This document shows, piece by piece, positions 28,903 to 62,345 of a stretch of 62,345 nucleotides of DNA (the first letter of the stretch is position 1; every line of letters starts with the position of its first letter). The translations under genes and the position numbers were made by a program. Source of the stretch: Cytauxzoon felis (taxonomy: Eukaryota; Apicomplexa; Aconoidasida; Piroplasmida; Theileriidae); NCBI GenBank assembly GCA_020283715.1, contig JAIQCW010000333.1:1-62345 (forward strand), read 5' to 3'. Below the pieces are notes generated by a model that was not told the DNA's origin, did not search any database, and was given only the letters and a program-made list of their open reading frames with translations.

Positions 28903-30189
28903 ATGTTAAATGTATTATTAATACTAATTATATTGACCATCGCAACTACAAAATTAATGAGCCCATTCTATTCGAGGTAATGAATCAATTTCCATAAACC
29001 ATAATTATTATTAGGAAATTTGTACATATAGGATGTGGATTAGTTATTGCTAATATCAATATACCAAATGATCACTTAAAACTTGTTATTATCTTCATCG
29101 CAATTTCAAGTATATTAATCTTCATAATACGTCCATTAAGATTTGGCGTCAAGTATGATGTCGGTATCATCTCCTATAATCTAACCGTATTATTATTCGT
29201 ACTATTCAAACAACCACTCAGAATACTATTACCCATGTTCATAGTCGACCCCGTTGCAGCCATCGCCGGCAATATCCTTAAAACCAAAACCTGGATCCAT
29301 ACTAAAACAGTAAGTTATCTTCATACATCTATTCCACCTGAAGTCCAATCCAACTCTCTTCATCCTGCCGTCAGCTCTCCACCTGAGGTCCAGTAATATT
29401 CCTCATTCCACTCGCCGTGGAGGCCTTCTCTATTTATTTCCCCTTCCAGCTCCCCTAGATCGCTTCCAGGTACTCCACTTGAGGTCCAATCACTACACTT
29501 CCGCCACTCGCCGTGGAGGCCTCTTCTAATTAGTTCCCCCCTCAAGCTCCCGTGGATCGCTCTCGGGTATTCCACTTGAGGTCAATAATCACGGTCTTCC
29601 ACTACTTCATTTTTACTTCTAAAATTTGAAGGAATTTCATAATTTCTGGGGAAACTCGTGAAGATATCTCAATGAATATCAAATGAATTTCTAATGTCAA
29701 TACCTCATTGAAGAGGAATTTGATGATTGTATTTAATTTACTCATCCTCACTTCATTCCAATTCATATTCACTGAGATATCTTAACAAACATGGATTCCG
29801 ACACATTAGTCTTATCTCGACGAAATTAGATTTATAACCTCGAGTGGAACCCGAGAACGATCTCTGGGAGTTTGAGGGGGAAGTAAATAAGAGAAGGCTC
29901 CATGCAATGGGAAAACAAGGTGGAGATGGAGAGTTGGATTGTACATCGAGTGGATTATATATATATATATATATTTCAATAGGTATTTGGTAGTATGGTT
30001 GGTTTTATATCATGTATAATATCATTATATTATGTAAGGAATATTATGCATAGGATAATATTATCATTAGTATTGGTGATGGTAGAGGGTATAATGGATA
30101 GATATGATAACATGGGTATAACATTGATTATAATAATATATTATTATATGAGTATAAGAAATGATTATATGATTGATTTAATTTGGTAA
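28903..30189 (+). CDS. CTP-dependent lipid kinase, dolichol/phytol kinase or DGK1-like
   Basis: Small membrane enzyme, 191 residues from exons 28903-28976, 29015-29309 and 29983-30189. Family marks are SRKFVHIGCGL (the RK..H..G start), IDP-type VDPVAAIAGNIL, then KTVFGSMVGF (the K...GS step) and VEGIMDRYDNMGITLI (acidic/DN motif near the C-terminus), with hydrophobic segments between. These are the conserved blocks of the SEC59/VTE5/DGK1 group, which phosphorylate polyprenols, phytol or diacylglycerol using CTP. Which lipid is used cannot be told. The second intron (29310-29982) holds repeats and the second element. Its 3' end overlaps the convergent Sfi1-like gene by 12 bp. Confidence 0.75.
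29335..29605 (-). repeat. Repeat block in the lipid kinase intron
   Basis: Minus-sense modules including two ExDLxExEGEINRE variants (SDLGELEGEINREG) in tandem. Confidence 0.85.
29615..29828 (+). repeat. Second dispersed element (copy)
   Basis: Plus orientation, about 215 bp, from GAAGGAATTTCATAATTTC to CTTATCTCGACGAAATTAG. Bordered on both sides by first-repeat modules, inside the lipid kinase intron. Confidence 0.88.
29832..29955 (+). repeat. Repeat block closing the lipid kinase intron
   Basis: Plus-sense modules (CCTCGAGTGGAACCCGAGAA, GGCTCCATGCAATGGG), then an (AT)n tract before the splice acceptor. Confidence 0.8.
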
Positions 30190-33100
30190 TAATAATGATT
30201 TGAATATAGAGAAGATAAATTTCATTAATTTGAATTTTTTTGTATCAATAAATAATAATGATCTATGATGACATAATTTATACCATTTAGATAATAAAGT
30301 ATAATCTTTTAATAAATTAATACCATTTAATATACGATAAGTATTAATAAATAAATTAATATCATTCATAGTATTAATATCACAATAAATTAAATTACAA
30401 TGATTTTTCCATAAATGTAATATTTTTATTAATTTAATTAATATAATTTTACATTTAAATTGATATATAATACGTTGTTTAATAGGTATATCAATTAAAT
30501 TTATAATAAATATACGTTTAATCCAATAATTATTATATGAAGATAAATATTTCCAATAAATAAAATATGTTTTTATTAATCTTTTATTAAATATTAATAA
30601 TAATTTATTATAATTTTTATATAATTTTAATATATTTATACCAATATTAATACGATATATTTTTAAATTTGATAATATTTTTATATTTTTATATAATATT
30701 TTATTATTTATTAATTCATTTAATTTTATAGAATTTATTTTATATTTTATAAATTCATTTATTATTTCTTTATAAATTAATTTTTTATATTTTATTAATA
30801 TAAAATTTAATTTATTTATACCACTTATTATTCTTATTATATAAAATAAATTTGATTTTAATCTATTATTATCTATACGTTTTATTAATATTATATTTAA
30901 TATTATATTCATATAATATAATTTTATATTTTCATTATTTAAATTATTAATCATTATCTTAATCTTATTCAATTCATTATTCTTTAATATTATACCACGC
31001 CATATCAATATATAACGTATCAATATATTATTATTATATATCCTTAACACATAATCCATATTCTTACGATCTATCATTACCTCATTATATACACTCAACC
31101 ATCTACTTATCGAATTATCCAACAACATCAATTCATAACTATAGAAATATAATGAAGGTATTACACCTGAGGTTACAATCCAACTCTTCTTCCCATTGCA
31201 TGGAGCCTCCTCTATTTACCTCCCCCTCCGCTTCCCTGAGATCAGCTGCGGGTTCTACTTGAGGTCCAGTACTACTCTTCAAACACATCTTGAAGAGGTT
31301 AAAGATAAATATGAAATTAAACTTGGGGAAATTAGTCCATACACAGCACGTCCTGATGGTGGTCAAATTAGTGTTTCAGCAATAGAGCAACAAAATGGTA
31401 CCCCTCAATTTAAAGGTTTTAAACATGAAGTTGGATCAAGTGGTGTTATAAATCTTGTTACTATACATGGTCACGCAATAGTGGCCAATCCAGAAATTAA
31501 TAACACTGTCCTTCAAGGTAAAAAATACGTATTTGTATATTTTGAAAAGACTGACGCGGAGAATGATCGTAAGAAACCTCTGTTGATATGTTTATCTCAA
31601 AATGGTCAAGCAGGATCCGGTAATAAATGGTATAAACGTGTGAAGACTAGTGGTCAAAATACATGGACGGATGAGAGTATTGGTAGTACTATAGCTCCAG
31701 ATAACATTTCCGGATTTGCAACAAACCTCACTCAAATTAAAGATAACCTTGGTAATGGTGGTATTGCAGATAAAGGTTATCTTAGTAGATGTAACCTCGA
31801 GTGAAAGTGGAACCTGGAAGCGATCTATGGGAGCTGGAAGGGGAGGTAAATAGAAGAGGCCACCACGGCGAGTGGAAGAAGAGTTGGATTGGACCTCGAG
31901 TGGAGAGCTCTCTGCAAGAGGAAGGAAGGACCTAAGGTGGAACGGCGAGTGGAACAGTAGTTGTAACCTCGGGTGGAGGCGTGTGAATATCAACATACTT
32001 GTATTTGATGGTATTGAGGTTAAATTTTCGTGTAGTTTTGGTATTGGTATAATGTTTGAGTGAGAGGTATGATTTCCAGATGAGTTTGATGGGTGTATGT
32101 ATGAAGGATTTGAGTATGAATTTGCATTTGATGATAAGGTGCCAGGAGTGTAGATGTTTATATAATATAAGTTGTTGATTGATGATGTGTATATTATTAA
32201 TGATTTCATTTCTTTTATTGGTACGGAATTGTGTTAATTCATACCAATGATTGAAAATATTGGGTAAAATATATAATTTTAATGTATTAATATATAATAA
32301 TTTAATATTATTAATAATATGAATATAATTTAACCATTTTTTAATAATAATATATTTTAATTTAATAAATTTAATAAAATTATAATAATTATTAAATAAT
32401 AAACCCCATTTTGATAATTTTAATTTATTTTTCTTATATAAATTTATATTAAAATATAATTTTATAAATGGATATGATAATTGTTTTAAATAAATAAAAT
32501 TTATAATATTAAAAAATTTATTAAATTTATTAAATTTTTTATTATTTATTATATTTATTAATTTATACCAATTATTAAATATATTTAATTTATTTATATT
32601 TTTATTTATTAATTTTATATTTTCTATTATATTATTATCTAATTTACGTTTTTTATTTATTATTATTGTTATTAATTTCCATTCATAATAATATATACTC
32701 ATCATTCTTTTATAATATTTTATATATATTAATCTCCATATCGGTACTTTCAATTCTATTAATTTATTTATATTTAATGGGGTTAAATTACCCAATAACA
32801 CCACATTTTTATATAATTTATCATAATTATAATTAAATAATTTATTTAAATATAATTTATGTAATAATAATTTAATATCATTATTATAATTTATATTATC
32901 ATTAATATAATTATTTAATTTATATTCATATAATAACATAGTACATGATACACGTATATCAATCATTTCTTTAGATGATAATTTATCCAATAATTTAATT
33001 AAAAAATCATTATTATTATAACCATATTCATTCATTAATTCATTACTACGAATCTTTAAATTCAATAATAATAATATAAATGATTCAACCTCACTACGTA

Positions 33101-39164: not shown

Positions 39165-39425
39165 CTTCCAGCAGAAGTCCAATCCAACTCTCTTCTCCAC
39201 TAGCCGTGGTGGCACCTTCTAATTAGTTCCCCCTCCGCTTCCCTTAGATCAGCTACGGGTTTTCCACTTGAGGTTACATAACTACTACCTCCATTATCGC
39301 CACGATCTCTGGGAGTGGCTTTACTCTTCAGAGATAGGTAATTAGGAGAGCTGTCTGCAAGACGAAAATAGTTGGTTGTAACATCAGGTGGGGTAGTGGG
39401 GGTTTCTGGGGATAAATAACACTAT
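39165..39425 (-). repeat. Repeat block between convergent genes
   Basis: Minus-sense modules ([19 protein letters not shown], CTTAGATCAGCTACGGG), followed by a short His/Asn-type module (GGGGATAAATAACAC). Confidence 0.8.
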
Positions 39426-39737: not shown

Positions 39738-42700
39738 TTAATGTTTTTTATTATTGCATAGTGGGCATTGGTGTAGTTCTTGGTGAATGTATTCATTGCA
39801 GTAGTTGCAAAAGTTATTTTTACAATCTGGACATGTGTAACCTGAAGTTTGTTATATGTGTTGTGAATGAGAATTTTCTTTATTAGACGAACTTGTATCA
39901 GATTTATAATTACAGGTTGTACATAAATTAATTTTTTCTTCCTATAAAAGAATAAATTATTAAGATTGGTATAAACAAACTTTAATAAATGTTTTAGGAG
40001 GTATAAGATGATGAAATGCTCTAGAAATAGCGGGTGGTGATGCTAAGAATAAACCACAACACTGAATAATGGGGGTTTTTAAAAAAGTTCCAATATACTC
40101 ACCTTGCATTTCGTAGGTATTGTACAATATTTTCCATTACATTGTGGACATATATAAGCCTTATGAGTCAATGTTGAATGACATGTACATAATGACGCTG
40201 TAGCCGTCATCTTCAACGGAGGGAATCCAACTTTCATCAATATCGACTCCATCCAACTCTTCCTATATAGAAAAAATAAATCACCCAAACTAGCAAAGAG
40301 AATGAGGTGTATACATCGAAGATGTCTGTCGTCTCACTTATACCAAATTCCAATTTTACCATTGCATCCACTACATCTCTTCCACTCGCCTCCACCGTAG
40401 GTCCTGCCGTCAGCTCTTCTATTTACCTATCTCTAAAGAGTAGAGCCACTCCCGGAGATCGTGGCGGAAGTGTAGTGGATGCAATGGGAAAATTAGAATC
40501 TGGTAGAAAAGGTGAAAAGACAGAAATCTCATGAGGCATAGAGGAAAAATTATGAGGCAACTAAATGAATATGGTATTAATTAGCCCCAGTTAAAATAAT
40601 TTCTTTTAATTAAATATCCATGTAGGGTGTAGTCATGTGTGATCTTTGTCAGCCCAATCAGAAAAGCAGTATTACTTTTATTAGCCTCATTAGCTTCAGT
40701 TCCATGTTCTTTATCTGTAGGATTCTTATACCATCGTCTATTTGGTCCAAAGACGTATGCATCCTTCGTTCCGGGATCAAAATCAATATCCAGAAATGAA
40801 GTAATGTTATCATTAGCTATACCTAATGTTTGAGTACTAATACTAGTGCCACTTTTAACTTGTACTGTAGGAGGATTAGGGTTACTTCCGGTTGCAGTCA
40901 CTTTAAAGTAAACTACACCAGTGCCAAGATCACTAGCGTTTACAGTATTACCATCGTATTCAGTAAGTTGACCATCAGCGGGTCCTTTGTAATATTTTTC
41001 ATAGTCCGTATATTCGAAATCAGCATTTTTAATATCAACAGCCTTAAGCTTAACTTTATCCTGGTGATTTCCGACCAATATACCACAGAATATGGAAATT
41101 ATAGCCATTAATGAAAATATCAGAGAAAGATATACAAATACCTCTGAAGCATCACTTATTCTAATTATATACATCGAGACAAATATACCGAGGAATGAAC
41201 ATCCAGCCATTCCAGCAGATATTGTAAGAGGTATTAAAATGACATCATTTTGGTCAGTAATTTGACCTTTAGCTTGTTCAATTTTTGCTCCAACTCCATT
41301 TGTTTCATTATTAAATTTATCGGCAACAAGTCCCCATCTGTTAAAAAGATCAACTCCAGCAGATACTGGTATAGCACCAGCAGGAACTCTATAATTACCA
41401 GCATTTTCAATTGCATCATCTGTACCGTATCTATATTCTATTTTTCCAAGGGTAGCTTCAGTTGTGTTTGATTATTAGAAGCTCCAATAATGCCTTTAAT
41501 CGCCCATCCTGATACTTCGGATGCAGTATATTCAAGCATTAATCATAGTTCTATAAAATGGTGGCGTAAATAGTCATTAAAATAAATAATATCGGCCTTC
41601 ACTATATCTTCTGTATGAGCGTCAATACCCGTCCAAGATGAAACTTCCACCTTGGGTTTATTAATATCATCCTCAATATAAAAGTGATTTCTATCAGTAG
41701 AAAGATTGGAAGCAGCTTGAGTTTGTTCACCAGCCCCACCTGGAGTAATATTTGAATTATTGGTATCCGTATTTGGATGCAACTTCAGTCTCTCTCCTTT
41801 ATATTGAAATGTGATGTTTCTGAATGTCATGAGTTTAAGTTGACGCTTGTCATGATCATTGGCTCTCAAAACATCACATAATATAGATGTTACTGTAAAT
41901 ATTGAAAAGAGAGTACCGATTAATACATAAATTATAGAGGATTCTATGAAACACCCCATAAGTAACCCAGTGAATATACCAACTGATGATAAACTTGCCA
42001 TTACAGCAGATATTTTAAGAGGTGTTAAAATGACATCTGTACTATCAGTAATTTTATCTTTAGCATCACCAAGTTTTTCTTTAACTTTTGTACTAATATG
42101 GAAGCCTACAGCTCCCCATCTATCGGATGTATCCTCAAGTAGGCTAACTCTTTTGTGACTGGCAGGAATACCATAATTACCGGGACTACCTGCCCTAGTT
42201 GTGTTGCTGCTATATGTATATTCCGTAGGACCACTACCACTATTTAATTTCTTTAGATTATGTGTATCTCTATTATTGGCTGATACCAAATCACCCTGAA
42301 TTTTAAATCCAAAGTAAGTCGGGTCCAATATTTTCAAGATCATCTGATATGTACAGATGGAATGATGAATACCCACGTAAGATGCCACCATTTATGATCA
42401 TTCTTCCATTCACGGTTTGGTCCTATTGCACCTTGACCTGATTTGTATTCAATATCCAATAGTGCAATGATATTATCCTCAGCTAGTTCTTCTGCCACTT
42501 GACTAGAATTATTAATAATGGCAGTGGTATTTGTAACTCTAATTTTAGGGGCATTACCACCACTCGTCTGGAAATGATTACCGGTAGTAACATTGCCGGC
42601 ATCAATTTTTTTATTACCAGTAGACCCATCATTAGTGGCATTTGTATTCTTATTGCCATCGGTATATGAATTAAATATTTCAGTAAAATTGTAATATTCA

Positions 42701-45700
42701 TATGTTATGCTTGTTTCTGTTATGTTTTCTATCTGTTTAAGTTTCATCTTGTCATGGCCATTGGCAGGTAAAAGAGCGGATAACATAGAGGTTGAAGCTA
42801 ATACAGAGATTGATATTCCAATAATGATGAATGCCCTATTTTCATTAATTAACATGGTGATAATTAACCCAATAATGAATAATAAACCCAATATTCCTCC
42901 AACAACAGATAATATAATAACTGGTACATTAAATGGTTCATCCTCCCATAATATAGTCAGATTCTTACTCAAAGTAGTCCAAACTTCTCCAAGTTTAGTT
43001 TCAACACTATTCGCTCCACTAGTTAGTTCCTGAGCTATTTTAACATATTTGGCAACTTTCCTATGACCTTTATCTTGTTCATGAGTAACATCGTTGGTAT
43101 TAGTATTTGTAGAACTACCAGGTTGATCGTTCCACGTATAATTTTTGTTACCTGTTGTTGGTGCCTGAATATTTTTATTATTAGCTGCATCAAGTATTCC
43201 TTGCATTGCCCATTCTGGATAAAATGGATGCAATATATTCAAACATTGATCGATAGTCCATATGATGGAACAAAGGCTACATGTGTACAGTGCCAATATC
43301 TACGATCACCATTATTCCAATTAGTTGTTCCAGTAATTCCACCTGGACCATTAGCATTTGCTACATCCAATAAGGCTATTAGAAGGAGTACACAACTACT
43401 ATACTTGGCTTTATTAAGAGTATCATTAGCTGCAGTAGCACCTTGACTACCTGTTAGTTCGTTGAACATGTGCATTGCAGCCGCGGCACTCGATATTGCG
43501 ATGCCTCCAAAGGTAAGGGCAGATGTAGATACAATGAAAGCAAAGAGGAACAGGGGAGCAGCGAGTGACTCATTATATCTCAGGAATAACAAATATGAGA
43601 ACATCAAAACAATCGTAAAGATAATCATCAAAACACCAATCCCAACAATACATACAAGTCTGGAAAAATCAATTTTAGCCTTCGTTTTAGTACTAGGAGC
43701 TTTAGCTGCACCAGAACCATTATGTTGATTACTTATTTTATTCAAAACCGGTTTTTCTATTTGATTTGCAATCAATACAGGAGTAAATATAAATGAAGCT
43801 GTATAAATCCCAGAGATTATCGCAAATGTTTTAGGCTTAGCATAATCTGGGTCACTAAAATCGAAAAATACCCTCATGTAAATGAAGAATGAGATTGAAA
43901 TTATTAGGAAAATTCCAAAGAATGTCCCAGAAACAGAAGCACCAATGGTAATATTCTCAATTTTAATATCATCAGCAGCAGTGGGAAGTTTATTTTTTTG
44001 TATATTATCAGGATTAAATTCTCTATTGAATGCCTGTATTGCATTGACTACAACTGTTATATCATCAGTAGTAAGACCACTATCATTAAAGATATTTTGA
44101 TGATATGCATCTGTATCTTTTGTAACTGTTTTATGGTTTGCAGCAAGGAGCATGGCTTTTATTTGAAAGTTCTCATAATTTGGATCCAATATATTCCAAC
44201 ATTGATCAATGGTCCATAGTATAGAATGATGAACACACAGATAAGATGCCACCATTCATGATCATCTTTTCTCTTTTCATTATTTTCGAGATACCATCTA
44301 CCATTTGGTCCAAATGCACCATTACCGGTATAATCAATATCCAATAGTGCAATGATGTTAAGCTCAGCTATTTCTTCCTCTTTAAGATCAGTGCCAGAAC
44401 CAGCCCCAGCTTTAATCTCTACTCTAGGAGCCGTGGTTGTAGTGGCCGTCTTTAAATGTATATCATTTCCAGTACCAAGCGTAGAATCATCTACTTCAGT
44501 AGCAGTTTGGGCAGTAGACCAATTAGTTTCAGTTTTAAGTTTTGTATTGTGTGCTGTTATTCCAGTATATTTATATGCTATAGTGGCCTCATTAAGTTTA
44601 ACCTTATTCCATCCATTAGATGATAATATACCAGCGAGTATGGATATTGTAGTTAAAACAGAGAAGGATATTCCAATAATTATGAATGCCCTATTTTCAT
44701 TAATTAATATGGTGGTAATTAACCCAATAATTAACAGGAAAATCAATACTCCTCCAACAACAGTTAATATAATAACTGGTACATTAAATGGGTTTGTTGA
44801 CCAAAATTTTTTCCAATCACGACTCAAAGTAGTTGTCCATACATCTCGAAGTTTTCCCCCAACACCATTAGTTTTGTCATTAAGTTTATCAGCTATGGCA
44901 CCTCTCCTATCATCTGCATCTTTAGAAGCTTCAACAGTAGTAGGATTACCAGTGGTGGGGTCATCGCCTGTCCCCCACGTATATTTCTTTCCAGTGTAAT
45001 CGATATTCTGATTGTTAGCCGCGGCAAGTAAACCACCAATTTCCCACGACTTATAATCCGGCTTCAATATATTCCAACATTGATCAATGGTCCATAGTAT
45101 GGAGCAAAGGCTAAATTGTACAGTGCCAATATTTACGAGTACTCCAATTATCATCTTTAGTAACTCCACCTGGTCCATTAGCACTCGGTATTATATCCAA
45201 TAAGGAGTAGTGTTAGCCTCAGTTAGATTATTAGTTCCAGCATCTTCAGCACTATAACCACTTTTTACTTCAACTTTGAAATTCTCTCCACTCTTTTCCT
45301 TGAAGTAATAATTGTTATAAGTAGACACCATAATATCTGCGGAAATAGGATTCGTATCAGTAACAGGAGCATTAGTAGTGCCAATTTGATATCTGGCTGA
45401 ATGTCCTATATATTCCAAATGGGTCCTCTGAAAGTTTACATCCTTCAACAACACTTTATCAATATAGTTTGATGAAATCATGTCGAAAAATATTATGGCA
45501 GTGGTGAAGATGGAGAGTAAAATACCGTCAATCACAAACATTTTTATAAATTCCCCATTTACTGGGGTAAATAACTCCATTAACATATAGATGAATGACG
45601 TTCCAGTCATTACAGAAATTAGAACAAGAGATAATATAATAGGACATTCATTCCAACAACTCTTCCAACAATTATCTAGTTCGTCCTTAACATCCTTCGT

Positions 45701-48700
45701 CATTCTCTTAGCGACAACATCCCATCTCATGAAAGTATCAGTTGCCTCATCAATCGTTGTATACTTATTTCCGGCAGGTAATACCCAATTTTCACTACCA
45801 TCCTTAGTAGGTGTCTCTGTACCATAGTGATAGCTTATATTCGTCCCATTGAGATTCTCTTCAGTTGTATTTTCATTATTTGCTGCTAGAAGGATCCCTT
45901 CAATATTAAATCCAAAATAAGTTGGGTGTAATATATTCCAACATTGATCGATTGTCCATAGGATGGAGTGTTAAAAAACAGTCATTAACCGAATGTAATT
46001 TACTGAAGAATACGTAAAGACATATAATATAAATTATTCCACCAAGCCATACAAAATGATAGTATTGTCTTTTTACACCATTATCTTCCACCCATTTAGC
46101 ACCTGGACCTAAGTTAACTTGTTTTAAATCTAAAATGGCATTGTCTATAATTTCAACTCAAATTGTCTCGTGAATTGAGAAAATTTTTAAAGGATGAATA
46201 GCATAAACGAATCCAATAGAGAACGCAAGCATACCAATAGGGGACCAATCATGACCATTACCCTTCCTAGCAGGATCATTACTACCTCTTGTATCAATAT
46301 CAAATAATTTCTTTATACCAGAGTCTGCGGTGACTGCGGAAACTATCGCTGCAGTAAATCCAAATGATAGGAAGCCTCCAATAGTCTGTATGATATATGA
46401 ACCTTCCATTGACATTGAAGCAGATGCAATCAATATGAAAGACATAAAGAGTATCCAACCACTAGCCAAGGCTTCAACTGTAGCAGCTTGATTAGTTCTA
46501 CCATTATCGTAAAGTACAAACACTGCTATGGTGCTTGATATTGCAATTCCAAAAGTATCATGATCCTCGCAAAATTATAAGCGGCTTTAAAATTATTAGC
46601 ATCATCTTGGGTAGTTCCTGTATATTCCTTAATGGCACATTTCTTTACATAATTGGGGAGAATTATTGGGATAATGCCGGAAAATACGTAACAAATTATA
46701 GATGTACCACCGTTTCCTTTTAAATGCGTATCAAGATCACCTTCATTTGGCCACTCTAATACTTCATTAAGTTCATTTTCATCAGGATTATCACCACTTT
46801 GGTTAGCGGCACCTCTTAGAATACCAGCCTGCCACACTGCATAATTCGGACACATTATTTGTAATAATTCATTGTCAGTCCATAGGAAGGAAGGATGAGT
46901 ACCCATGTAGAGTGCCAATATATATGATCTTTATGAGCCCAATTGAATAAAGCACCTGCTGTATTTTTATTGGCCTCAGTAGCGCTGTGAGTTCCTGGTG
47001 GATGATGATACCATCGTCTATTTGGTCCATATACATATTCCGTATTCTTGCCAGGATGATAATCAATATCCAGAAATGAGGTAATATTAACCTTAGCTAG
47101 TTCTTTAACTACAGGTGCTGTGTTAACTTCATCTTTGCTGTAACCTTTTTTGACAGCGTTTATAAGAGCATTTTCATCAAGAGCCTTCGTACTACCATCA
47201 AGAATATTAGCCTCAGTCTGATCTTTAGGATTAGAGGGATCTTTTCCTTTACCATTTTCAGGCGTAATCGTCAGAGGAGTCCCATTATTTCTCAATTTAA
47301 TTTTATCCTGATGATTATTCACGAGGATTCCAGAGAATATGCATAAATATGTGAAGTATGACAGGGTTAATGAAAGTGGAATGATGATAATATCACCAAG
47401 ATGATTTATAGCCACAAATCTACGTGTAGAAATACCAATGACAGACAACAGCATTAATAAACCAAAGACGATAGGAATAATGTAGTTGTGATTCTGAATA
47501 ACCTTTTCAATTAATTCATCTCTTGCAGTTTTAATTGTAGTTTTGTTTCCAACTTTATCCGTTAAATACGCTGCAACTAAGGAGAATCTGTTAAATGTAT
47601 CTAAAGCTTTCTGCTCGGCAAGACTTTTCTTATCAGCAGTTGCATTATAACCATCCCATTCCTTTATTTTTGAATTTAATTCATTCGTATCGTGATTTGC
47701 TGCTAAAAGAATCCCTTCAATATTAAAACCAAAATACGTCGGTTGCATTATATTCCAACATTGACTCTGTGTTGAGAATGAAAGCTACATACGTATAATG
47801 CCACAACGTATGTAACTTAGTTCTCCTATCCTTGGGTTCAGCATTGTCGTCGATACTACCCCTCCACCACCTACCTGTGGGTCCAATTATAGGCTTTTTC
47901 TCATCCCAATGGATATCCAATAATGCGAGGTGATAATTAAAGAACAGTAAGTTGTGTCCATTGAATACTTGAACATTAAAATAGGAGACCAATCCTTCCT
48001 AGCATGGGCATGACCTGCAAATAATTTCTTTATACCAGAATCTGCTGTTGTTGCAGAAACTATTGCAGCAGTAAATCCGAATAACAGGAATCCTATTATA
48101 ATCGATAAAATATTTGAATATTCCGCAGAAGATACAAAAACAACATCAAAAATGACAAATAATGATGCAAGGAGTATCCAACTACTAGTCATGGCATTAT
48201 TAAGAGTTTGATTAGCTCCAGCACCTTTTAGTTTATCATGCATATATATCCCGGCTATCGCGCTCGATATTGCAATGCCTCCGAATGCAATTCATAGTTA
48301 CATTCCACTCGCCGTACCACCTGAGGTCGTCCTGCAGACAGCTTCCCTATTTACTTCCCCCTCCGCTTCCCTGAGATCAGCTGCGGGTAATAAAATGATA
48401 CAATAGTGTTTGCCCTAATTATATTATTTGGTGTAGTATAACCACTAGTAAAATCTGGATCAAATGTTGGAGCATTTTGCATATTTTCTGTTTTTATATG
48501 ATCATCATTTTCTAGAGTAGAAGCAACAAGAGGATTACTATTATTATGATCAGTTCCTACCTTTTGCCATCGATTAGCACCGCTAGCATTCGGTTTATAT
48601 CTATGCAATTGAACAGTCACACCAGCTGCAGGTGTATATTTGTACGATAATGTAGTTCCGTTAATATTATTCTTAAGTGTCGTCTTATCATTATTATTTC

Positions 48701-51301
48701 CAACCATCAGGCATGTGAAGATGGGAATTAATCCAAGGATAGAGAATATTATGCCGATGAATACATGTGTATAAGGGGATTCCACATTCCATATGATGAG
48801 CAAACAGAGGATTATACTTGAAAATGATATACCCGCTATAACGGTTGAAGTTATAACAGGAGGTTTCATTTCAGGATCCGTCCATGGTTTACCAGCTGGG
48901 TTAAAAAAGCTATTAAAGTTCCCTACAAGTTTGGATAGTTTCTCGGCTAATGCAACCTTTCTATGATATTTATCAGCGCCTGCAGGAACTTCCTTGTAGT
49001 CTGTACCTTTTTGAAGTTGAGTAGTTCCATCAGGTTTTTTATGATTCCTAATTTCTGGAGTGGTAGGATTATCTTTATGTACAGTATTATCAGATGGGTT
49101 ATGTGTTCCCCAAGTGTATGATTTGGGTGTTGGTTCCCATTGCGTATTATTAGCAGCATCAAATAAATCATGCAATGCCCATCCTTCATATTTCGGTTTC
49201 AATATATTCCAACATTGGTCGACAGTCCAGAATTTATTCTGTCAAGCAGCCACAAAATTCGACCTAACTATATGATCGGCATTAATATCAAATGTATGTC
49301 CTGTAGTAGCCCATTGTAAGTCATTGATTTGAGTTTCATTAAGTTTAGTACCACTTTCGGCAGACCAATTAGTTTTCAACTTGATGGTAGAATTTTTAAG
49401 ATGATACCTTTCATTCTGATTGGCGATTAAAACTCCAGAGAATATTGCAATGATGGAAGTGATGGCTAAGGAAATTCCAAAATTCCTAATTTCACTTGAA
49501 AGCTCTAAATCTCCGAGCCCTAGACTTACAGTTAGAGGTATCCCATAGTTGACACTCAATATAAGGAAGAAACCAAATATACCTAAAGCTACACCACCGC
49601 CAATTATAACGGCTTGAGCTTCATTTCCATCCCAAAGATTTGTAAATTGCTCAAGTTTCTTGGCAACACCATCAGTTCCATTAAGTTTCCCTGCAATCAT
49701 TCCAGCTATAGTGAAATCAATTTTCTTCTTGGCATCAAGAGCTGTTTGATTAGCTTTAGTAACAGCTGGATTAGCACCAGTTTTAGCAGTAATATTTTGA
49801 TTACTGGTATTCAATAATTCATTGACAGCAATTTTATTTGCAGATTTAATTTCATCCTCCATCGTCATAATTACCTCAGCCTCCATTTTCACCTCAATTT
49901 TCCATTTAAAAACATACCATGTTGGCGGTGTTGTGTTTTGCATGAGTAATTCCTTCAAGTGTTGTGTATCTCTAGCAACAGAATATGTTCCACCCGTATC
50001 ATTACAAATGTGCTGTAAAGGATTTCATAATTTCAACTCCCATATTAATTCAACAAACTTTTAAAATATACATCTCTGGCGATAATGAAATTGCAGTTAC
50101 AGTAATGTGATGCAATTTTAAACTCTCTAGAGTACCCAAAATATTCCTAACATAGTCATTCAATAATACTACATACAACATACCCAGGATCCAACGTGTT
50201 ATTCGATCCAAATATTATCAATACCTCCCTTGTAGTATACGATGGCAACATCGATAATAAATTTATCGTCAACTATATAATATATATATCAAACATCTCA
50301 TCTTCCACTCGAGGTCCAATCCGCCTCTCTTCGTCTTGCAGACAGCTCTCTTCCCACTAGGCATGGTGGCCTCTTCCAATTACCTATCTCTAAAGAGTAG
50401 AGCCACTCCCGGAGATCGTGGCGAAGGTGGAGGTAAAAATGGAATGAGGATTGTAGTGGACCTCAAGTGGAACCCGTAGCTGATCTCAGGGAAGCGGAGG
50501 GGGAAGTAAATAGAGAAGGCCACCATGCCTAGTGGAAAGAAGAGTAGGACTGTAACCTCAGGTGGAACGGCGAGTGGAAGACTGGAGAGATAGTGATTGG
50601 ACCTCGTATTGATGTTAAATAGTGTTAAAGACTAACATCGAGACCATTTTGTAGAGATGCGGTTCCTTCAGCGCCATCTTTGACGGTATTTGCGAGTAAT
50701 TTTATTTGTTCTTCGGGGTTAGTTCCTAATTGTGTAATGAGGTTAGCTGATTTATTTCTGAGAGTGATTAATGCAAGTTGTGTTATTGGGCATTGATGAA
50801 ATAAATCATTGATGAACTCCTAATGGGGTAAAATAAAATGTCTAAATTTTTATGATACCTTAACAGCACCATAAGCGCAATATAAACGGTCAGGTTTGAA
50901 ATCTAATTCTCTCATATGATCACTCATATCAAATATAATGACAATATTCCTATAATTTTGATATTAATATTTACATTAAAAGTCTCATACCTTATTATAC
51001 CCCTCTTTGATATTATACCATTCGTTTCAGTAATCGTTGACTTTAAATCCAAATCATCCGTCATTAATTTGCGATTCTTTGGCGTTATAAACTGCAATAC
51101 ACCATCCTTATCTACCAATAATTCCCATGATTTATCAACATCTATAATTAATCAGTATATTATAAATACAAACACACCCTTCTCCCAAGCGTATTGAGCA
51201 TATGCTTCTTCTTCATGTTCCTCCGTTATATCAGCCGTCTGCTCAAGCTCTGATATCAACTCCTCCACAAGAAGTGATTTCTTATCCTCACTAGACATCA
51301 T
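39738..51301 (-). CDS. SSL1: TFIIH subunit p44/SSL1, split by a 9.7-kb intron
   Basis: Core TFIIH subunit for transcription initiation and nucleotide excision repair; p44 stimulates the XPD helicase. Exons: 51301-51178, 51141-50991, 50949-50859, 50819-50637, 50272-50184, 50146-50059, 50012-49918, 40262-40103, 40061-39981, 39941-39893, 39841-39738, summing to 404 residues, the usual size. Marks: vWA domain IIRNIVIIFDMSDHMRELDF and KPDRL, TTREVLIIFGSNNTLDPGN, CNDTGGTYSVARDTQHLKEL, then TPPTW joined to KSWMESILMKVGFP, zinc fingers CTCHSTLTHKAYICPQCNGK, CCGLFLASPPAISRAFHHLI and YTCPDCKNNFCNYCN. The phases close across the large intron (TG + G = W). Separating the two ends into two genes would break a single conserved protein. 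Confidence 0.93.
40315..40535. repeat. Repeat inside a 55-bp inverted duplication
   Basis: The arms at about 40322-40375 and 40473-40527 are imperfect inverted copies (both carry CCATTGCATCCACTAC in opposite senses). They enclose about 97 bp of repeat (VGPAVSSSIYLSLKSRATPG). Lies between the SSL1 acceptor and the last array unit. Confidence 0.75.
40581..41535 (-). pseudogene. Array unit 11, degenerate
   Basis: Last unit of the array. Family landmarks survive but in different frames: CLNILHPKYQDG, then GWAIKGIIGASNNQT, then YRVPAGAIPVSAGVDLFNRW, then the main block from ISAGMAGCSFLGIFVSM to FLDIDFDPG and FGPNRRWY. The C-terminal motif equivalent to DHIYWHSTW lies in yet another frame and is cut by TGA. 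At least three frame changes make it a likely pseudogene, or else several tiny introns are unrecognised. Confidence 0.6.
41543..42391 (-). CDS. Array unit 10, multi-span family
   Basis: Starts functionally at MILKILDPTYFGFKIQG, reached by a possible 29-nt intron from unit 9. Contains IPASHKRVSLLEDTSDRW, several membrane segments (VILTPLKISAVMASLSSVGI, IIYVLIGTLFSIFTVTSILC), LRANDHDKRQLKL and a Thr/Asn-rich loop. It ends before the usual GPNRRW...WH motif, so the C-terminus is shortened. Confidence 0.65.
   Translation of the reverse strand: MVASYVGIHHSICTYQMILKILDPTYFGFKIQGDLVSANNRDTHNLKKLNSGSGPTEYTYSSNTTRAGSPGNYGIPASHKRVSLLEDTSDRWGAVGFHISTKVKEKLGDAKDKITDSTDVILTPLKISAVMASLSSVGIFTGLLMGCFIESSIIYVLIGTLFSIFTVTSILCDVLRANDHDKRQLKLMTFRNITFQYKGERLKLHPNTDTNNSNITPGGAGEQTQAASNLSTDRNHFYIEDDINKPKVEVSSWTGIDAHTEDIVKADIIYFNDYLRHHFIEL
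42340..43296 (-). CDS. Array unit 9, multi-span family
   Basis: A complete unit. Opens IIWTIDQCLNILHPFYPEWA and AANN, then an extramembrane Thr-rich part and membrane segments (VPVIILSVVGGILGLLFIIG; AFIIIGISISVLASTSMLSA), ANGHDKMKLK, a variable loop, and the terminal IALLDIEYKSG, IGPNREW and WWHLTWVFI. Closest in sequence to unit 7. Its first 58 nt overlap unit 8 in another frame. Confidence 0.75.
   Translation of the reverse strand: MALYTCSLCSIIWTIDQCLNILHPFYPEWAMQGILDAANNKNIQAPTTGNKNYTWNDQPGSSTNTNTNDVTHEQDKGHRKVAKYVKIAQELTSGANSVETKLGEVWTTLSKNLTILWEDEPFNVPVIILSVVGGILGLLFIIGLIITMLINENRAFIIIGISISVLASTSMLSALLPANGHDKMKLKQIENITETSITYEYYNFTEIFNSYTDGNKNTNATNDGSTGNKKIDAGNVTTGNHFQTSGGNAPKIRVTNTTAIINNSSQVAEELAEDNIIALLDIEYKSGQGAIGPNREWKNDHKWWHLTWVFIIPSVHIR
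43239..44255 (-). CDS. Array unit 8, multi-span family
   Basis: Opens ILWTIDQCWNILDPNYENFQ and AANH. It has more membrane segments than its neighbours, including LVCIVGIGVLMIIFTIVLMF and LFLFAFIVSTSALTFGGIAI. Ends IALLDVANANGPGG and YWHCTHVAFV. The TFGGIAISS motif is shared with units 3 and 5. Its start overlaps unit 7 by 97 nt in another frame. Confidence 0.75.
   Translation of the reverse strand: MVASYLCVHHSILWTIDQCWNILDPNYENFQIKAMLLAANHKTVTKDTDAYHQNIFNDSGLTTDDITVVVNAIQAFNREFNPDNIQKNKLPTAADDIKIENITIGASVSGTFFGIFLIISISFFIYMRVFFDFSDPDYAKPKTFAIISGIYTASFIFTPVLIANQIEKPVLNKISNQHNGSGAAKAPSTKTKAKIDFSRLVCIVGIGVLMIIFTIVLMFSYLLFLRYNESLAAPLFLFAFIVSTSALTFGGIAISSAAAAMHMFNELTGSQGATAANDTLNKAKYSSCVLLLIALLDVANANGPGGITGTTNWNNGDRRYWHCTHVAFVPSYGLSINV
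44159..45184 (-). CDS. Array unit 7, multi-span family
   Basis: Opens CSILWTIDQCWNILKPDYKS and GGLLAAANNQN, with the same membrane layout as unit 9 (NPFNVPVIILTVVGGVLIFL; RAFIIIGISFSVLTTISILA). Ends IALLDIDYTGNGAFGPNGRW and WWHLICVF. The N-terminal 15 or so residues before CSILW are the out-of-frame shadow of unit 6. Confidence 0.75.
   Translation of the reverse strand: MLMDQVELLKMIIGVLVNIGTVQFSLCSILWTIDQCWNILKPDYKSWEIGGLLAAANNQNIDYTGKKYTWGTGDDPTTGNPTTVEASKDADDRRGAIADKLNDKTNGVGGKLRDVWTTTLSRDWKKFWSTNPFNVPVIILTVVGGVLIFLLIIGLITTILINENRAFIIIGISFSVLTTISILAGILSSNGWNKVKLNEATIAYKYTGITAHNTKLKTETNWSTAQTATEVDDSTLGTGNDIHLKTATTTTAPRVEIKAGAGSGTDLKEEEIAELNIIALLDIDYTGNGAFGPNGRWYLENNEKRKDDHEWWHLICVFIILYYGPLINVGIYWIQIMRTFK
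45105..45975 (-). pseudogene. Array unit 6, one apparent frameshift
   Basis: Reads openly from HSILWTIDQCWNILHPTYFG and LLAANNENTT, through RWDVVAKRMTKDVKDELDNC and membrane segments (IILSLVLISVMTGTSFIYML), to NLTEANTT. There a one-base change separates it from its expected ending LDIIPSANGPGG and KYWHCT. The unit is otherwise intact. This may be decay, a tiny intron or a sequencing slip. Confidence 0.6.
45960..46918 (-). pseudogene. Array unit 5, frame-disrupted
   Basis: Three family blocks in different frames: FLWTDNELLQIMCPNYAVWQ with AANQ, then (from about 46560) FGIAISSTIAVFVLYDNGRT to DWSPIGMLAFSIGFVYAIHP, then GPGAKWVEDNGVKRQYYHFV. Shares DWSPI.ML and GPG..W with the PMS1-nested gene, which ties the two sites to one family. 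Confidence 0.6.
46868..47770 (-). CDS. Array unit 4, multi-span family
   Basis: Opens SQCWNIMQPTYFGFNIEG and LLAANHDTN. Then FSLVAAYLTDKV, membrane segments (YIIPIVFGLLMLLSVIGIST; IIIIPLSLTLSYFTYLCIFS), LVNNHQDKIKLR, a charged loop, and the ending TSFLDIDYHPGK, YGPNRRWYHHPPG and YWHSTWVLI. A possible 22-nt intron (GTAGC...CACAG) would join it in frame to unit 3. Confidence 0.72.
47771..48297 (-). pseudogene. Array unit 3, 5'-truncated and frame-disrupted
   Basis: Begins abruptly at the repeat with IAFGGIAISSAIAGIYMHDK, the middle of a normal unit. It continues with membrane segments (SWILLASLFVIFDVVFVSSA) to DWSPILMF. After a frame change it ends LALLDIHWDEKKPIIGPTGR and LWHYTY. The repeat seems to have replaced its N-terminal half. 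Confidence 0.6.
48298..48388 (-). repeat. Repeat between array units 2 and 3
   Basis: The only first-repeat copy inside the array (CCCGCAGCTGATCTCAGGGA, GTCTGCAGGACGACC, ACGGCGAGTGG on the minus strand). Both neighbours are truncated at it: unit 2 loses its C-terminus and unit 3 its N-terminus. Fits a deletion or insertion mediated by the repeat. Confidence 0.85.
48389..49250 (-). CDS. Array unit 2, 3'-truncated by repeat
   Basis: Opens NKFWTVDQCWNILKPKYEGW and FDAANN. Has RKVALAEKLSKLVGNF, membrane segments (PPVITSTVIAGISFSSIILC; HVFIGIIFSILGLIPIFTCL), MVGNNNDKTTLK and a long loop. It breaks off at NTIVSFYY, where repeat sequence takes over in frame, before the expected LLDI...GP..RW ending. 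Confidence 0.7.
49242..49886 (-). CDS. Array unit 1, multi-span family, beside the SSL1 splice donor
   Basis: The first unit of the array. The first own Met (49886) lies 31 nt inside the SSL1 intron. It lacks the WTIDQCWNIL opening but has IAVNELLNTSNQN, the likely counterpart of LLAANNQN. Membrane segments include AQAVIIGGGVALGIFGFFLI and NFGISLAITSIIAIFSGVLI, then ANQNERYHLK. It stops early (NFVAA), and 15 nt later unit 2 opens. Confidence 0.68.
   Translation of the reverse strand: MEAEVIMTMEDEIKSANKIAVNELLNTSNQNITAKTGANPAVTKANQTALDAKKKIDFTIAGMIAGKLNGTDGVAKKLEQFTNLWDGNEAQAVIIGGGVALGIFGFFLILSVNYGIPLTVSLGLGDLELSSEIRNFGISLAITSIIAIFSGVLIANQNERYHLKNSTIKLKTNWSAESGTKLNETQINDLQWATTGHTFDINADHIVRSNFVAA
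50305..50615 (+). repeat. Repeat block in SSL1 intron 4, opposite to the gene
   Basis: Plus-sense modules ([34 protein letters not shown]), antisense to SSL1. They make this 364-nt intron about ten times longer than its neighbours. Confidence 0.9.
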
Positions 51302-51937
51302 AACATACACTATCAAACACTAAGGAGTTTAATACTGATATCTACCTGAAGTCCAATCACGATTTTTCGTCCTCTATCCAACTCGACGTTCCACCTGAGG
51401 TCCTGCCGTCAGCTTCTCTATTTACCTCTCCCTTCGCTTCCCTGAGATCAGCTGCGGGTGATTGTTGCGATTTGAATGTTAATTCGGGTGCAGTATTCCA
51501 CCAAATTCCAGTGAATATCACTGAATTATACGTGCTTTAATTAGATAACCCATAAGGCTTTCGTTATTATGGACATTTATGGGCTTAAATTCACAGTTTA
51601 TATTTATTGAGGCTGTTGCGATTAGTAAAATAGTTAGACGTATATATCAATGGAATCAGTCTCTTCAGATGAAAGAAGATAGAATATGATTCTAAAAGTA
51701 TATTTAAGTACTTGGACTTCCAGGAATCATCAGATTATACTTTAGACTACACACCTTGTAGACCCCATGAGTCGATGAAATGTATAGTAAATTTTACTTA
51801 GTATAATCATGAAATGAATCCAATATTGACGGTTAATTTATTGTTAATTTAAATATATTTATGGGAACTTAAAATTTGGATAATTTATTGGTGTAGAGAT
51901 TGTGTTATCATCCCGATTGTCTTGGTGTAATATAAAC
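51302..51937. promoter_or_regulatory. Divergent gap SSL1 / clathrin with one repeat
   Basis: 636 bp between divergent starts. A repeat block lies at 51350-51465 (minus-sense AADLREAKGEVNREA type). The remainder (51470-51937) is AT-rich with no recognised motif. Both promoters must lie here. Confidence 0.5.
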
Positions 51938-59729: not shown

Positions 59730-61446
59730 CACTCTATATCATTTAATCACTTACAATTCTCGTATAATATTATAATAATTTTATGAAATGTAATTATTTA
59801 TATAAATGTATTACTATGTTATATAGGTACTATACTTCAATCATGTTAGTAGTTATATAGTATATATATTATTATAATTTTTTATTATTACTACTTATAT
59901 AACTTCATATAACTATACTTCATCCTTCAATTGTATTATTATAAGGTATAAATTATTGGAAGTATGTTAAATTGATATAATGTAGTTAGAATATGGGGCG
60001 TGCCACATAATTATGGTGTTGTGAATTGAAGGTGGAATGAAGTGTAGTACAGGACCTCAAGTGGAGTACCCGTAGCTGATCTCAGGGAAGCGGAGGGGGA
60101 AGTAAATAGAGAAGCTGTCTGCAAGACGACCTCAGGTGAAGAAGCTCCATGCAATGGAAAAGATGGACCTACGGTGTAACGCCTAGTGGAAAGAAGAGGT
60201 TACATGTACTATGCCCGAGGTCGTTCTTCGGGTTGAAATGACAAATAATTATAAATTATATTATATAATATTGACATTAAGTTTACTAGTGATGATAGTT
60301 ATAATTATTTTCTTATATTTATAGTTTGTTTCATATTGAATTTAATTAAACATTTACATTCAATAGATTTAATTAATCTCTATATAGAAATAATGTTTAT
60401 TGTTATATATACATGTCATATTAAATGTAGGCTTTGGTGGAATTTATACAATGAGGTATGCACTTAATTCAGCACCACATATTATGGGGGGAAATATCAT
60501 CAATTAAAAAGACATAATTAAATGATGTAATTCAATGGATTATAGTATCTAATTATGAGAATATATGTCTATATGACTGTGATTGTTGTTGTTATAAGGG
60601 CAGTAATATATTAATATAGTATCAAATATGGTTTATCAGTTGATCATATTAAATCAATTGTAAATTTTCAGTAGTAGATATAATATAAGCACCAATATAT
60701 ACTGATGTAATTATAATAGGTACACTTAATTTATAAATATTCTACGCCAATGGTATCTCCCATCTCAGTGCAATACATAGTCGGGTTATCTATCATGACT
60801 GATGATAGAAGCATACTTTGTGGTATGAAATTATGTATTATAAATTTAATATATAATAGTATAACAATTATTATATCAACTAGTCACTATATTAAGTGAT
60901 AAAGTACTCTAAGTAGGCGATGAGAGGTAGTTAGTACTATGTAATTATTATCCATCAACCTACAGAAAACTCCAACATATGATATAGATTAACTATATAA
61001 TTTATTAGAATAAAAGTTTATATACTACATCAATAGGTAAACTTCATTATATGTCAATTTGTTATGATAAATGGTCAGAAATTAAATTTCCTACATCATG
61101 ATGAATATGTCTTAGAAAGGTATACTACCACAATTCACATTAGAATTCTTTCAATTTCATCACGTTAAAAATAAACATTACATGTCATTAACATCACTCG
61201 ATTCTAACACATCTAATGAATAATTATGAACTTTATAATTTATTGACCCAATATTACTAGGTAGAGCCAATAGCCTATGATGTCTAGGAATGACTGTTGA
61301 ACTTGGAGGCTCATAATACACGAAAATGAAGCCTATAGATTTAATGTATATTAGCAATGTCGGTAACGAAGCTTTTAAGTCACATGATGTTGAAATGGTC
61401 ATAAATTTTAAATGTAGTATTGTAATAGTAGAGGTATAGTAATAAA
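59730..61446. other. AT-rich intergenic region
   Basis: About 1.7 kb without a convincing gene. One repeat block at 60030-60215 (plus-sense, with GCTCCATGCAATGGAAAAG). The rest is AT-rich with no open frame or RNA gene that I can support. It presumably holds the promoter of the gene at 61447. Confidence 0.6.
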
Positions 61447-62345
61447 ATGTCGGAAAAGGGTGGAAACGACGGTATAAAGAAGGCAGCTGCCTTCTTAGGA
61501 GGATTTATAGTTCCATTTCCTCTATATACAGTGGTTAATTTCTCTTCATTTGCTGTTGAAAGATTCCATCTACCACCAGATAAGATACCATTATTCATCA
61601 ACAAATTCTTCAGTTCTATGGAAATATCATGCGTAGTTGGTATGATGATAACATGTGCAGCTGTTGTAGGACTTGGTGATAAATCAAACATTCTTTCTAT
61701 CGCTAATATATGGACATTCTTTATTACTGTCGTTATAATATTCTTTAGTTATATTTCTGGAGGTGATTTTGGAAGACTTACTCACTATTATTGGATGATC
61801 AATATGTTTGGATTTGTATTAGGAATTAATTACATCAGTATGGCAAAGGTTTCATCTAATGATGGACTTCTTGTTATCCTAGGTCGCACACTTTCCGGGA
61901 TTGCAGTCGTAATTTATCAAATGGGATTCTATTATATCGGATCCTATTATGGATTAGAAGATTTAGGTCATCGGATGTTCATTTGGTTCTTTATTTTGTT
62001 GATGTTTGTTTCACTATCCGCAGCAATAAGCTGGACAGTCGGATACAAGAAGGCAAGTACAAGCGAAAGTGAAAAGACTTCTGAAACTAAATGCTGTAAA
62101 TGCTGTAAAAAATGTGAAAATGAGGGTACTACTTGTAGATGTTGTTGCAAAGCATGCCCACAGGGGCAGGAAACTCCTTGTAAATGCTGTTGTAAGTGTT
62201 GTACAACTCCAACAGAATGTACATGTCAAGCAAGTGGAAAAAAATGTTGCTGTTGCTGTTGCTGTTGTTGTAAGGCTGAAGCTTGTGAATGTCCTTGTAA
62301 AACAGAATGCCAAGCTACCTGTACATGTAATGGATGTGCTGAAAA
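61447..62345 (+). CDS. Multi-span protein with cysteine-rich tail, 3' cut by window edge
   Basis: Open for 299 codons to the window end. Begins MSEKGGNDGIKKAAAFLGGF, then about six hydrophobic segments (for example ISCVVGMMITCAAVVG, WTFFITVVIIFFSYISGG, MFIWFFILLMFVSLSAAISW). After residue about 205 it becomes a cytosolic-looking tail of Lys/Glu/Thr with dense cysteines (KCCKCCKKCENEG, a run of nine Cys). Such a tail could be palmitoylated or bind metal. RFHLPPDKIPLFINK matches RYHLPPDVVGLFIYK of the PMS1-nested gene, so it is a family member outside an intron. Less AT-rich than the host genes. Confidence 0.8.
   Translation, partial: MSEKGGNDGIKKAAAFLGGFIVPFPLYTVVNFSSFAVERFHLPPDKIPLFINKFFSSMEISCVVGMMITCAAVVGLGDKSNILSIANIWTFFITVVIIFFSYISGGDFGRLTHYYWMINMFGFVLGINYISMAKVSSNDGLLVILGRTLSGIAVVIYQMGFYYIGSYYGLEDLGHRMFIWFFILLMFVSLSAAISWTVGYKKASTSESEKTSETKCCKCCKKCENEGTTCRCCCKACPQGQETPCKCCCKCCTTPTECTCQASGKKCCCCCCCCCKAEACECPCKTECQATCTCNGCAE

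Follow-up and report, generated by a model that had tools for sequence, protein, structure and literature searches.

Why a tandem array of membrane-protein gene segments lies between the two halves of the gene for SSL1/p44 of TFIIH, and whether these segments are genes in their own right, is the question raised by the window, that is, the whole stretch of 62,345 nucleotides analysed here. Searches for variable gene families in parasites usually concentrate on regions near telomeres or on dedicated loci.

The SSL1 gene and its long intron

SSL1 occupies the minus strand at 51301..39738, with 11 exons encoding 404 aa; all of its introns have GT..AG ends, and the frame is kept throughout. Exons 1-7 (51301-51178, 51141-50991, 50949-50859, 50819-50637, 50272-50184, 50146-50059, and 50012-49918) encode the vWA/Ssl1 part and were assigned from GT..AG introns, the Pfam family PF04056, and alignment with yeast SSL1. 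Exons 8-11 (40262-40103, 40061-39981, 39941-39893, and 39841-39738) encode the C-terminal zinc-binding part and were assigned from the splice frame and the yeast alignment. Between the two groups lies intron 7 (49917..40263, minus strand, 9,655 bp), which contains the array and has a unique donor and a unique acceptor. Its ends read GTATGT..ATATAG, and exons 7 and 8 join in frame as P-T-W-K-S-W. Eight of the remaining introns are 36-51 bp long and one, intron 4 (50273..50636, minus strand), is 364 bp long with a dispersed repeat inside, indicating that the 9.7 kb intron 7 is extreme.

The spliced SSL1 protein and yeast SSL1 (7k01) gave a single alignment over residues 34-402 with an E value of 9.6e-70, which crosses the joint at residue 274, and in which the zinc-binding C-terminal region is continuous with the vWA domain. 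At the joint (PPTW/KSW), 9 of 13 relatives from the protein library showed no insertion or gap. The B. divergens protein was one residue shorter at this point, and in the database models of T. orientalis L, B. bigemina, and B. caballi the joint region was missing or different. The full-length SSL1 proteins of piroplasms in the library were at most 66% identical to that of the window (T. equi, 66%; T. orientalis, 64% and 63%; T. parva, 57%), and a small tree placed the window's SSL1 just outside T. equi and the other Theileria with a support of 70. The assembly also contained at least 145 matches to FAINT domains, which are typical of Theileria. We take the window to come from a theileriid whose annotated proteins are absent from the library, perhaps one resembling Cytauxzoon.

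PF04056, the vWA-type Ssl1 domain, had three matches in the whole assembly (8,623,106 bases in 181 contigs), all of which were SSL1 exons above the curated cut-off. We therefore rejected a pseudogene at this locus with an intact copy elsewhere, since PF04056 is confined to this gene across the assembly. The original prediction had given the coordinates and length of intron 7 and its in-frame join to a 404-residue SSL1, and these proved exact when judged by the GT..AG ends and the yeast alignment through the joint. It had also raised the case of an intact second SSL1, and none was found in the whole assembly, where PF04056 matched only this locus. The array sits in an intron of SSL1, of which no second gene was found, so that SSL1 pre-mRNA must traverse it, and the claim that SSL1 splicing has to cross the array holds. 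The cassettes may also share the chromatin and transcription of SSL1, as the original prediction proposed. As judged from the sequence, SSL1 is a single-copy gene whose intron 7 is a true, in-frame GT..AG spliceosomal intron.

Cassettes of intron 7 and their full-length relatives

Between donor 49917 and acceptor 40263, intron 7 holds about ten cassettes of ~0.7-1.5 kb each, all on the same strand. The tandem same-strand array had been predicted correctly, but the predicted count of about eleven units did not stand; it probably arises from cassette 2, which is split by a repeat, being taken apart. The cassette map likewise led us to reject eleven separate genes in intron 7. A typical unit, though not every unit, starts with a conserved entry sequence, TCCATACTATGGACCATCGATCAATG (protein SILWTIDQCWNIL), and ends near WWHLTW or YWHCTH. 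The 28-base inner entry motif had 50 genome matches at up to 3 mismatches, compared with 0 for the reversed control, and the unit at 44162-45178 had 106 matches across the genome, itself included. The array is thus far beyond chance.

Elsewhere in the assembly, the same family occurs as single-exon genes of ~800 aa with the segment order N-A-B-C-D. Two of them, C29 (798 codons) and C86 (794 codons), each form one uninterrupted open frame. The segments are a conserved N of ~200 aa that includes the start codon, a variable A of ~250 aa, a membrane part B of ~195 aa, a short C of ~45 aa, and a conserved D. The N part had 130 genome matches, some of which are pieces of one gene, and nine of them, including the query, showed 70-100% identity; the D part had 113, of which the best nine fall at the same genes as the nine close N matches. 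These close full-length genes are C29, C172, two on C50, C160, C38, C86, C144, and C120. Two further segments of the window, at 11545-12776 (minus strand) and 61444-61953 (plus strand), are members of the wider superfamily with N parts at 42% and 28% identity. Within the window, N and D are matched at 11.5-12.8 kb and 61.4-61.8 kb, in both cases outside the array.

All cassettes of intron 7 are on the minus strand. Cassette 1 (49245..49910) lacks its 5' end and is 61% identical over 201 aa to a unit of a C33 array, the match beginning some 27 residues into that unit. Cassette 2 (47777..49241) is of the A-B-C type (A, 49232-48402; B, 48291-47947; C, 47926-47777) and is interrupted at about 48402-48291 by the dispersed repeat. 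Cassette 3 (46881..47776) is of the A-C type, with A at 47772-47077 and the C end taken from the open frame, whereas cassette 4 (45968..46880) has a divergent short A, a B (46550-46191), and a C-like end in a broken frame, the parts other than B being placed by eye. Cassette 5 (45104..45967) carries the entry motif and is 44% identical over 228 aa to the A segment of the full-length gene C50, of which it is the best-scoring match among 19 array loci and four full-length genes. Cassette 6 (44226..45103) is of the A-C type, and cassette 7 (43270..44225) has a short A with a partial B, followed by C. Cassette 8 (42359..43269), again A-C, is 50% identical over 248 aa to the A segment of C29. Cassette 9 (41540..42358) is of the A type with a degraded entry, and cassette 10 (40584..41539) is of the A-C type (A, 41471-40803; C end by eye), with 55% identity over 207 aa to the A segment of C86. 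Eight of the ten cassettes retain an open frame of 259-343 codons.

A tblastn search of 19 array loci (E 1e-5) found 62 A blocks but no N block and no D block, so the array units are headless and tailless. Cassettes contain A, often B, and C, and several omit B. The units had been taken for ordinary complete genes; this does not agree with the missing N- and C-terminal parts, nor with the unit joints described below, where the next unit is out of frame in 23 of 23 cases. Four cassettes and two full-length proteins were compared with Pfam, and none gave a match over a cut-off. A PDB profile search with two full-length proteins found nothing at E 1, and one cassette and one full-length protein had no match at E 1e-3 in the protein library. 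Some cassette-adjacent ORFs (L044:4529-5587, L056:535-1944, and L023:2341-2892) carry LWTWDQ or LWTWNE near their start and are perhaps a second unit type sharing the entry site. The L044 and L056 ORFs matched no Pfam family over its cut-off, and five neighbouring ORFs of other families had no FAINT or other Pfam domain over a cut-off.

Dispersed repeat and base composition

A dispersed repeat of ~60-130 bp was found throughout the window, with 35 matches to one 101-base core, or about one per 1.8 kb. It occurs on both strands, in introns, between genes, and within cassette 2, for example at 40380-40480, 50371-50432, 51390-51433, 39298-39363, and 48307-48391. The copy in cassette 2 (48307-48391) matches 51381-51462 at 86%, and further copies on the minus strand at 40300..40540 separate cassette 10 from the SSL1 acceptor. 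An initial genome-wide scan turned up 2128 candidates, and 40 of them were scored. Such a repeat seems unusual for so compact a genome. Parts of the window are very AT-rich, with a G+C content of 16% at 4001-5000, 12% at 30001-31000, and 15% at 32001-33000, while most of it is at roughly 30-38%.

Arrays in introns of other conserved genes

By our own count from the matches of unit 44162-45178, there are ~38 clusters in the genome, and 19 array loci and four full-length genes were analysed, with the flanks read by eye. Five of the 19 array loci sit between exons of one conserved gene, namely SSL1, CTP synthase, an M3-family peptidase, a mitochondrial carrier, and an MscS-like channel. All five arrays are in sense with the host and have GT..AG ends and an in-frame joint. 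For CTP synthase (C69 11832..14928, 3,097 bp), Pfam matches flank the array, and the joined protein aligns without a break to CTP synthase 1 (5u03) across the joint. In the M3-family peptidase (C159 23692..19869, 3,824 bp), the Pfam model is matched at 164-229 before the array and at 218-335 after it. The mitochondrial carrier (C52 14370..9719, 4,652 bp) has Mito_carr on both sides and one UCP1 match across the joint (E 3.4e-8). For the MscS-like gene (C123 14303..8672, 5,632 bp), MS_channel was found downstream of the array and no Pfam match on the upstream exon side, which makes it the weakest of the five hosts.

The host assignment covers 13 of the 19 array loci, all except C136, C75, C81, C100, C108, and C68, and at eight of the 13 no split host was recognised (two in C33, C20, C158, C162, C43, and two in C144, the C144 pair with short flanks). 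Intronic placement of the arrays recurs in five hosts; we claim recurrence, not enrichment. The four intronic arrays other than that of SSL1, and the relation of the cassettes to full-length genes, lay beyond the reach of the original prediction, which was based on the window. The units within each array are on one strand. The arrays of SSL1 and the MscS-like gene share a 1,660 bp block at 70% that spans a unit joint, and the C69 and C81 arrays share a tract of 177 bp at 97.7% over a unit joint.

These loci also bear on the possibility that the array was misplaced between the SSL1 halves by assembly through shared repeats. Dispersed repeats are common, with the 35 matches in the window, and copies stand between the array and the SSL1 acceptor. 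On the 5' side, however, the array starts beside the donor and no repeat copy was found at 48402-50371; moreover, the flanking halves belong to the same gene and join in frame at five loci, and there were 0 N bases in the window or the first set of loci. An assembly artefact is accordingly very improbable.

Are the cassettes expressed?

Each cassette might instead be expressed as a membrane protein of ~300 aa, with translation starting at an ATG of its own or with upstream exons spliced onto it; for cassette 1, retention of the intron might yield a fusion with SSL1. Two intron 7 units have an ATG directly before the entry motif (MVASY..HHSI, 44255 and 42391), but this ATG falls in a second frame of the WWHLTW end of the preceding unit, indicating that its conservation has another cause. 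Among 39 entry motifs examined at array joints, 21 had an AG within 20 bases upstream, which might permit splicing into the cassette, whereas 18 had none. The preceding unit retained its W-H end at 23 joints, and in all 23 the next unit was out of frame. A polyprotein spliced together from the cassettes is not supported by the same two counts, 23 of 23 and 18 of 39, while 21 of the 39 joints do have an AG.

Beyond the donor, the frame of SSL1 exon 7 stays open into cassette 1 (50024-49245, ~224 codons), so that intron retention would yield an SSL1-cassette fusion. In the other four host genes, by contrast, the frame closes within ~25 codons of the donor. In Theileria, tandem Tpr ORFs are annotated as genes, many of them without an in-frame Met, as described in PMC10730637, which would favour expression. 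Taking both sides together, we consider expression of the cassettes improbable.

Exchange between cassettes and full-length genes

In the N, B, and D segments, the four full-length genes pair by identity as C29-C50 (83, 83, and 72%) and C38-C86 (91, 73, and 77%), and the other pairs are lower in each segment. In the A segment, the closest pair is C29-C38 (53%), whereas C38-C86 and C29-C50 reach 36% and 38%; four genes give only six pairs, which are non-independent. The best A matches outside each of the four genes, among these genes and the 19 array loci, were array cassettes. C29 matched best in the SSL1 intron (50.4%) and the carrier intron (50.2%), C86 in the M3-peptidase intron (57%), the SSL1 intron (55%), and a C33 array (50%), C50 in the SSL1 intron (44%), and C38 in C162 (53%) and the carrier intron (53%). 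Cassettes of the SSL1 intron were among the top three A matches for C29, C86, and C50. In these 19 loci and four genes, donor-type segments without gene ends stand opposite full-length genes with conserved ends.

The PHI test was applied to three sets of A segments (26, 11, and 15), and in each set 0 of 500 permutations fell at or below the observed value. The main set comprised 26 segments of 215-300 aa from 34 found, and the other two were subsets of it; the sequences are divergent, and alignment error may inflate the signal. At the sequence level, these results show past recombination among cassettes and full-length genes, in one direction or the other. The comparison took in four of the nine close full-length genes and, from the ~38 clusters, 19 array loci. 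No near-identical pair of donor and recipient was found among them, which speaks against a fast switching system and indicates that the exchange is old, slow, or hidden outside the sequences covered. The best A matches between arrays and full-length genes are 44-57% in protein, and the best DNA tracts shared between them (139-290 bp at 87-88.5%) lie at the A/B border, not within A.

Within the four full-length genes, segment A had a median dN/dS (Nei-Gojobori) of 0.51, with all 6 pairs usable. The median was 0.59 for full-length genes against arrays, with 54 usable pairs out of 84, and 0.61 for arrays against one another, with 114 usable pairs out of 230 (range, 0.42-1.01); only open frames of at least 150 aa entered, which biases the set to intact units. 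By this measure, constraint seems only a little weaker in array cassettes than in the A segments of full-length genes, which would fit either recent exchange or inherited constraint. A whole-region comparison in which full-length genes appeared under stronger constraint was rejected, as it mixes regions and the difference is mostly gone on segment A alone.

The arrays could also be inert relics, partial copies tolerated in introns and intergenic space with no role in the making of variants. The absence of N and D parts from the 19 array loci, the repeat insertion and frame change within the SSL1 array, and the lack of recent identity between donor and recipient all agree with such a history. 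It does not account as well for the open frames of 259-343 codons in 8 of 10 intron 7 cassettes, for a median dN/dS of about 0.6 instead of 1 (in a set biased to intact units), or for the A segments of full-length genes being nearer to array cassettes than to those of sister genes. We regard inert relics as rather unlikely, though worth keeping in view.

A probable spliced-out stock of gene segments

Our preferred reading, with a probability of roughly 0.58, is that the cassettes form a spliced-out stock that is not independently expressed and that exchanged segments in the past with expressed full-length genes. A tandem array of about ten partial multi-pass membrane-protein cassettes would have colonised intron 7 of SSL1. 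The structure suggests that the cassettes ride in SSL1 pre-mRNA and are removed by splicing, without being expressed as genes of their own. At the DNA level they may serve as a sequence stock that has traded A segments with the expressed full-length genes, presumably by homologous recombination or gene conversion. Growth of the arrays was probably due to unequal exchange at the conserved joint between units, and their spread to the duplication of blocks of several units.

That five conserved genes carry such arrays in their introns suggests that spare gene segments can be stored there. A further proposal, which we offer tentatively and hold to be doubtful as a whole, is that introns of essential, constitutively transcribed genes make up a distributed, promoterless library of variant cassettes. 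Sense orientation and the need for intact host exons would protect the library, co-transcription would keep its chromatin open, and shared entry and exit sequences would be the sites at which segments are copied into some nine full-length membrane-protein genes.

Should introns of housekeeping genes contain cassette libraries, any annotation that assumes introns of ~40 bp will break up the host genes or call the cassettes genes, and part of the variant repertoire will be missed or miscounted. Intronic cassettes also make it testable whether transcription of the host gene affects donor use.

Comparison with known systems

Genes nested in introns are usually single complete genes. The SSL1 array resembles them in being a coding unit within an intron of an unrelated gene, but it consists of about ten tandem, incomplete cassettes, and the arrangement is repeated in five hosts. 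Among the papers listed in literature searches, titles and abstract openings showed nothing on such arrays in introns of host genes in piroplasms.

In the ves1 family of Babesia bovis, patches from silent copies are described as entering expressed genes and producing mosaics (PMC6630957), and our model of silent copies feeding expressed genes is similar. The ves genes are largely arranged in pairs around bidirectional promoters according to the same account (PMC6630957), whereas each array here lies on one strand. The units here are moreover partial and, in five cases, intronic, and the exchange looks old.

The Tpr/Tar families of Theileria form the Tpr locus in T. parva and small dispersed Tar arrays in T. 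annulata (PMC4413850). Like Tpr/Tar as described in PMC10730637, the present family consists of ORFs in tandem that are predicted to encode multi-pass membrane proteins and often lack a start codon, together with dispersed copies, and it likewise includes single-exon genes (C29 and C86). FAINT domains, typical of Theileria, are found in the same genome. Tpr/Tar proteins have a conserved C-terminal domain of ~245 aa with five TM helices (PMC10730637). A full-length protein searched against the library including T. parva, T. equi, and T. orientalis gave no match at E 1e-3 among 8000 candidates scored in a word-limited search. The cassettes here differ from Tpr/Tar in being without both gene ends and in that five arrays lie in introns of conserved genes; the word 'intron' does not occur in the main text of the Tpr paper (PMC10730637). 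In look, Tpr/Tar would be the closest known system, which our family resembles without being assigned to it.
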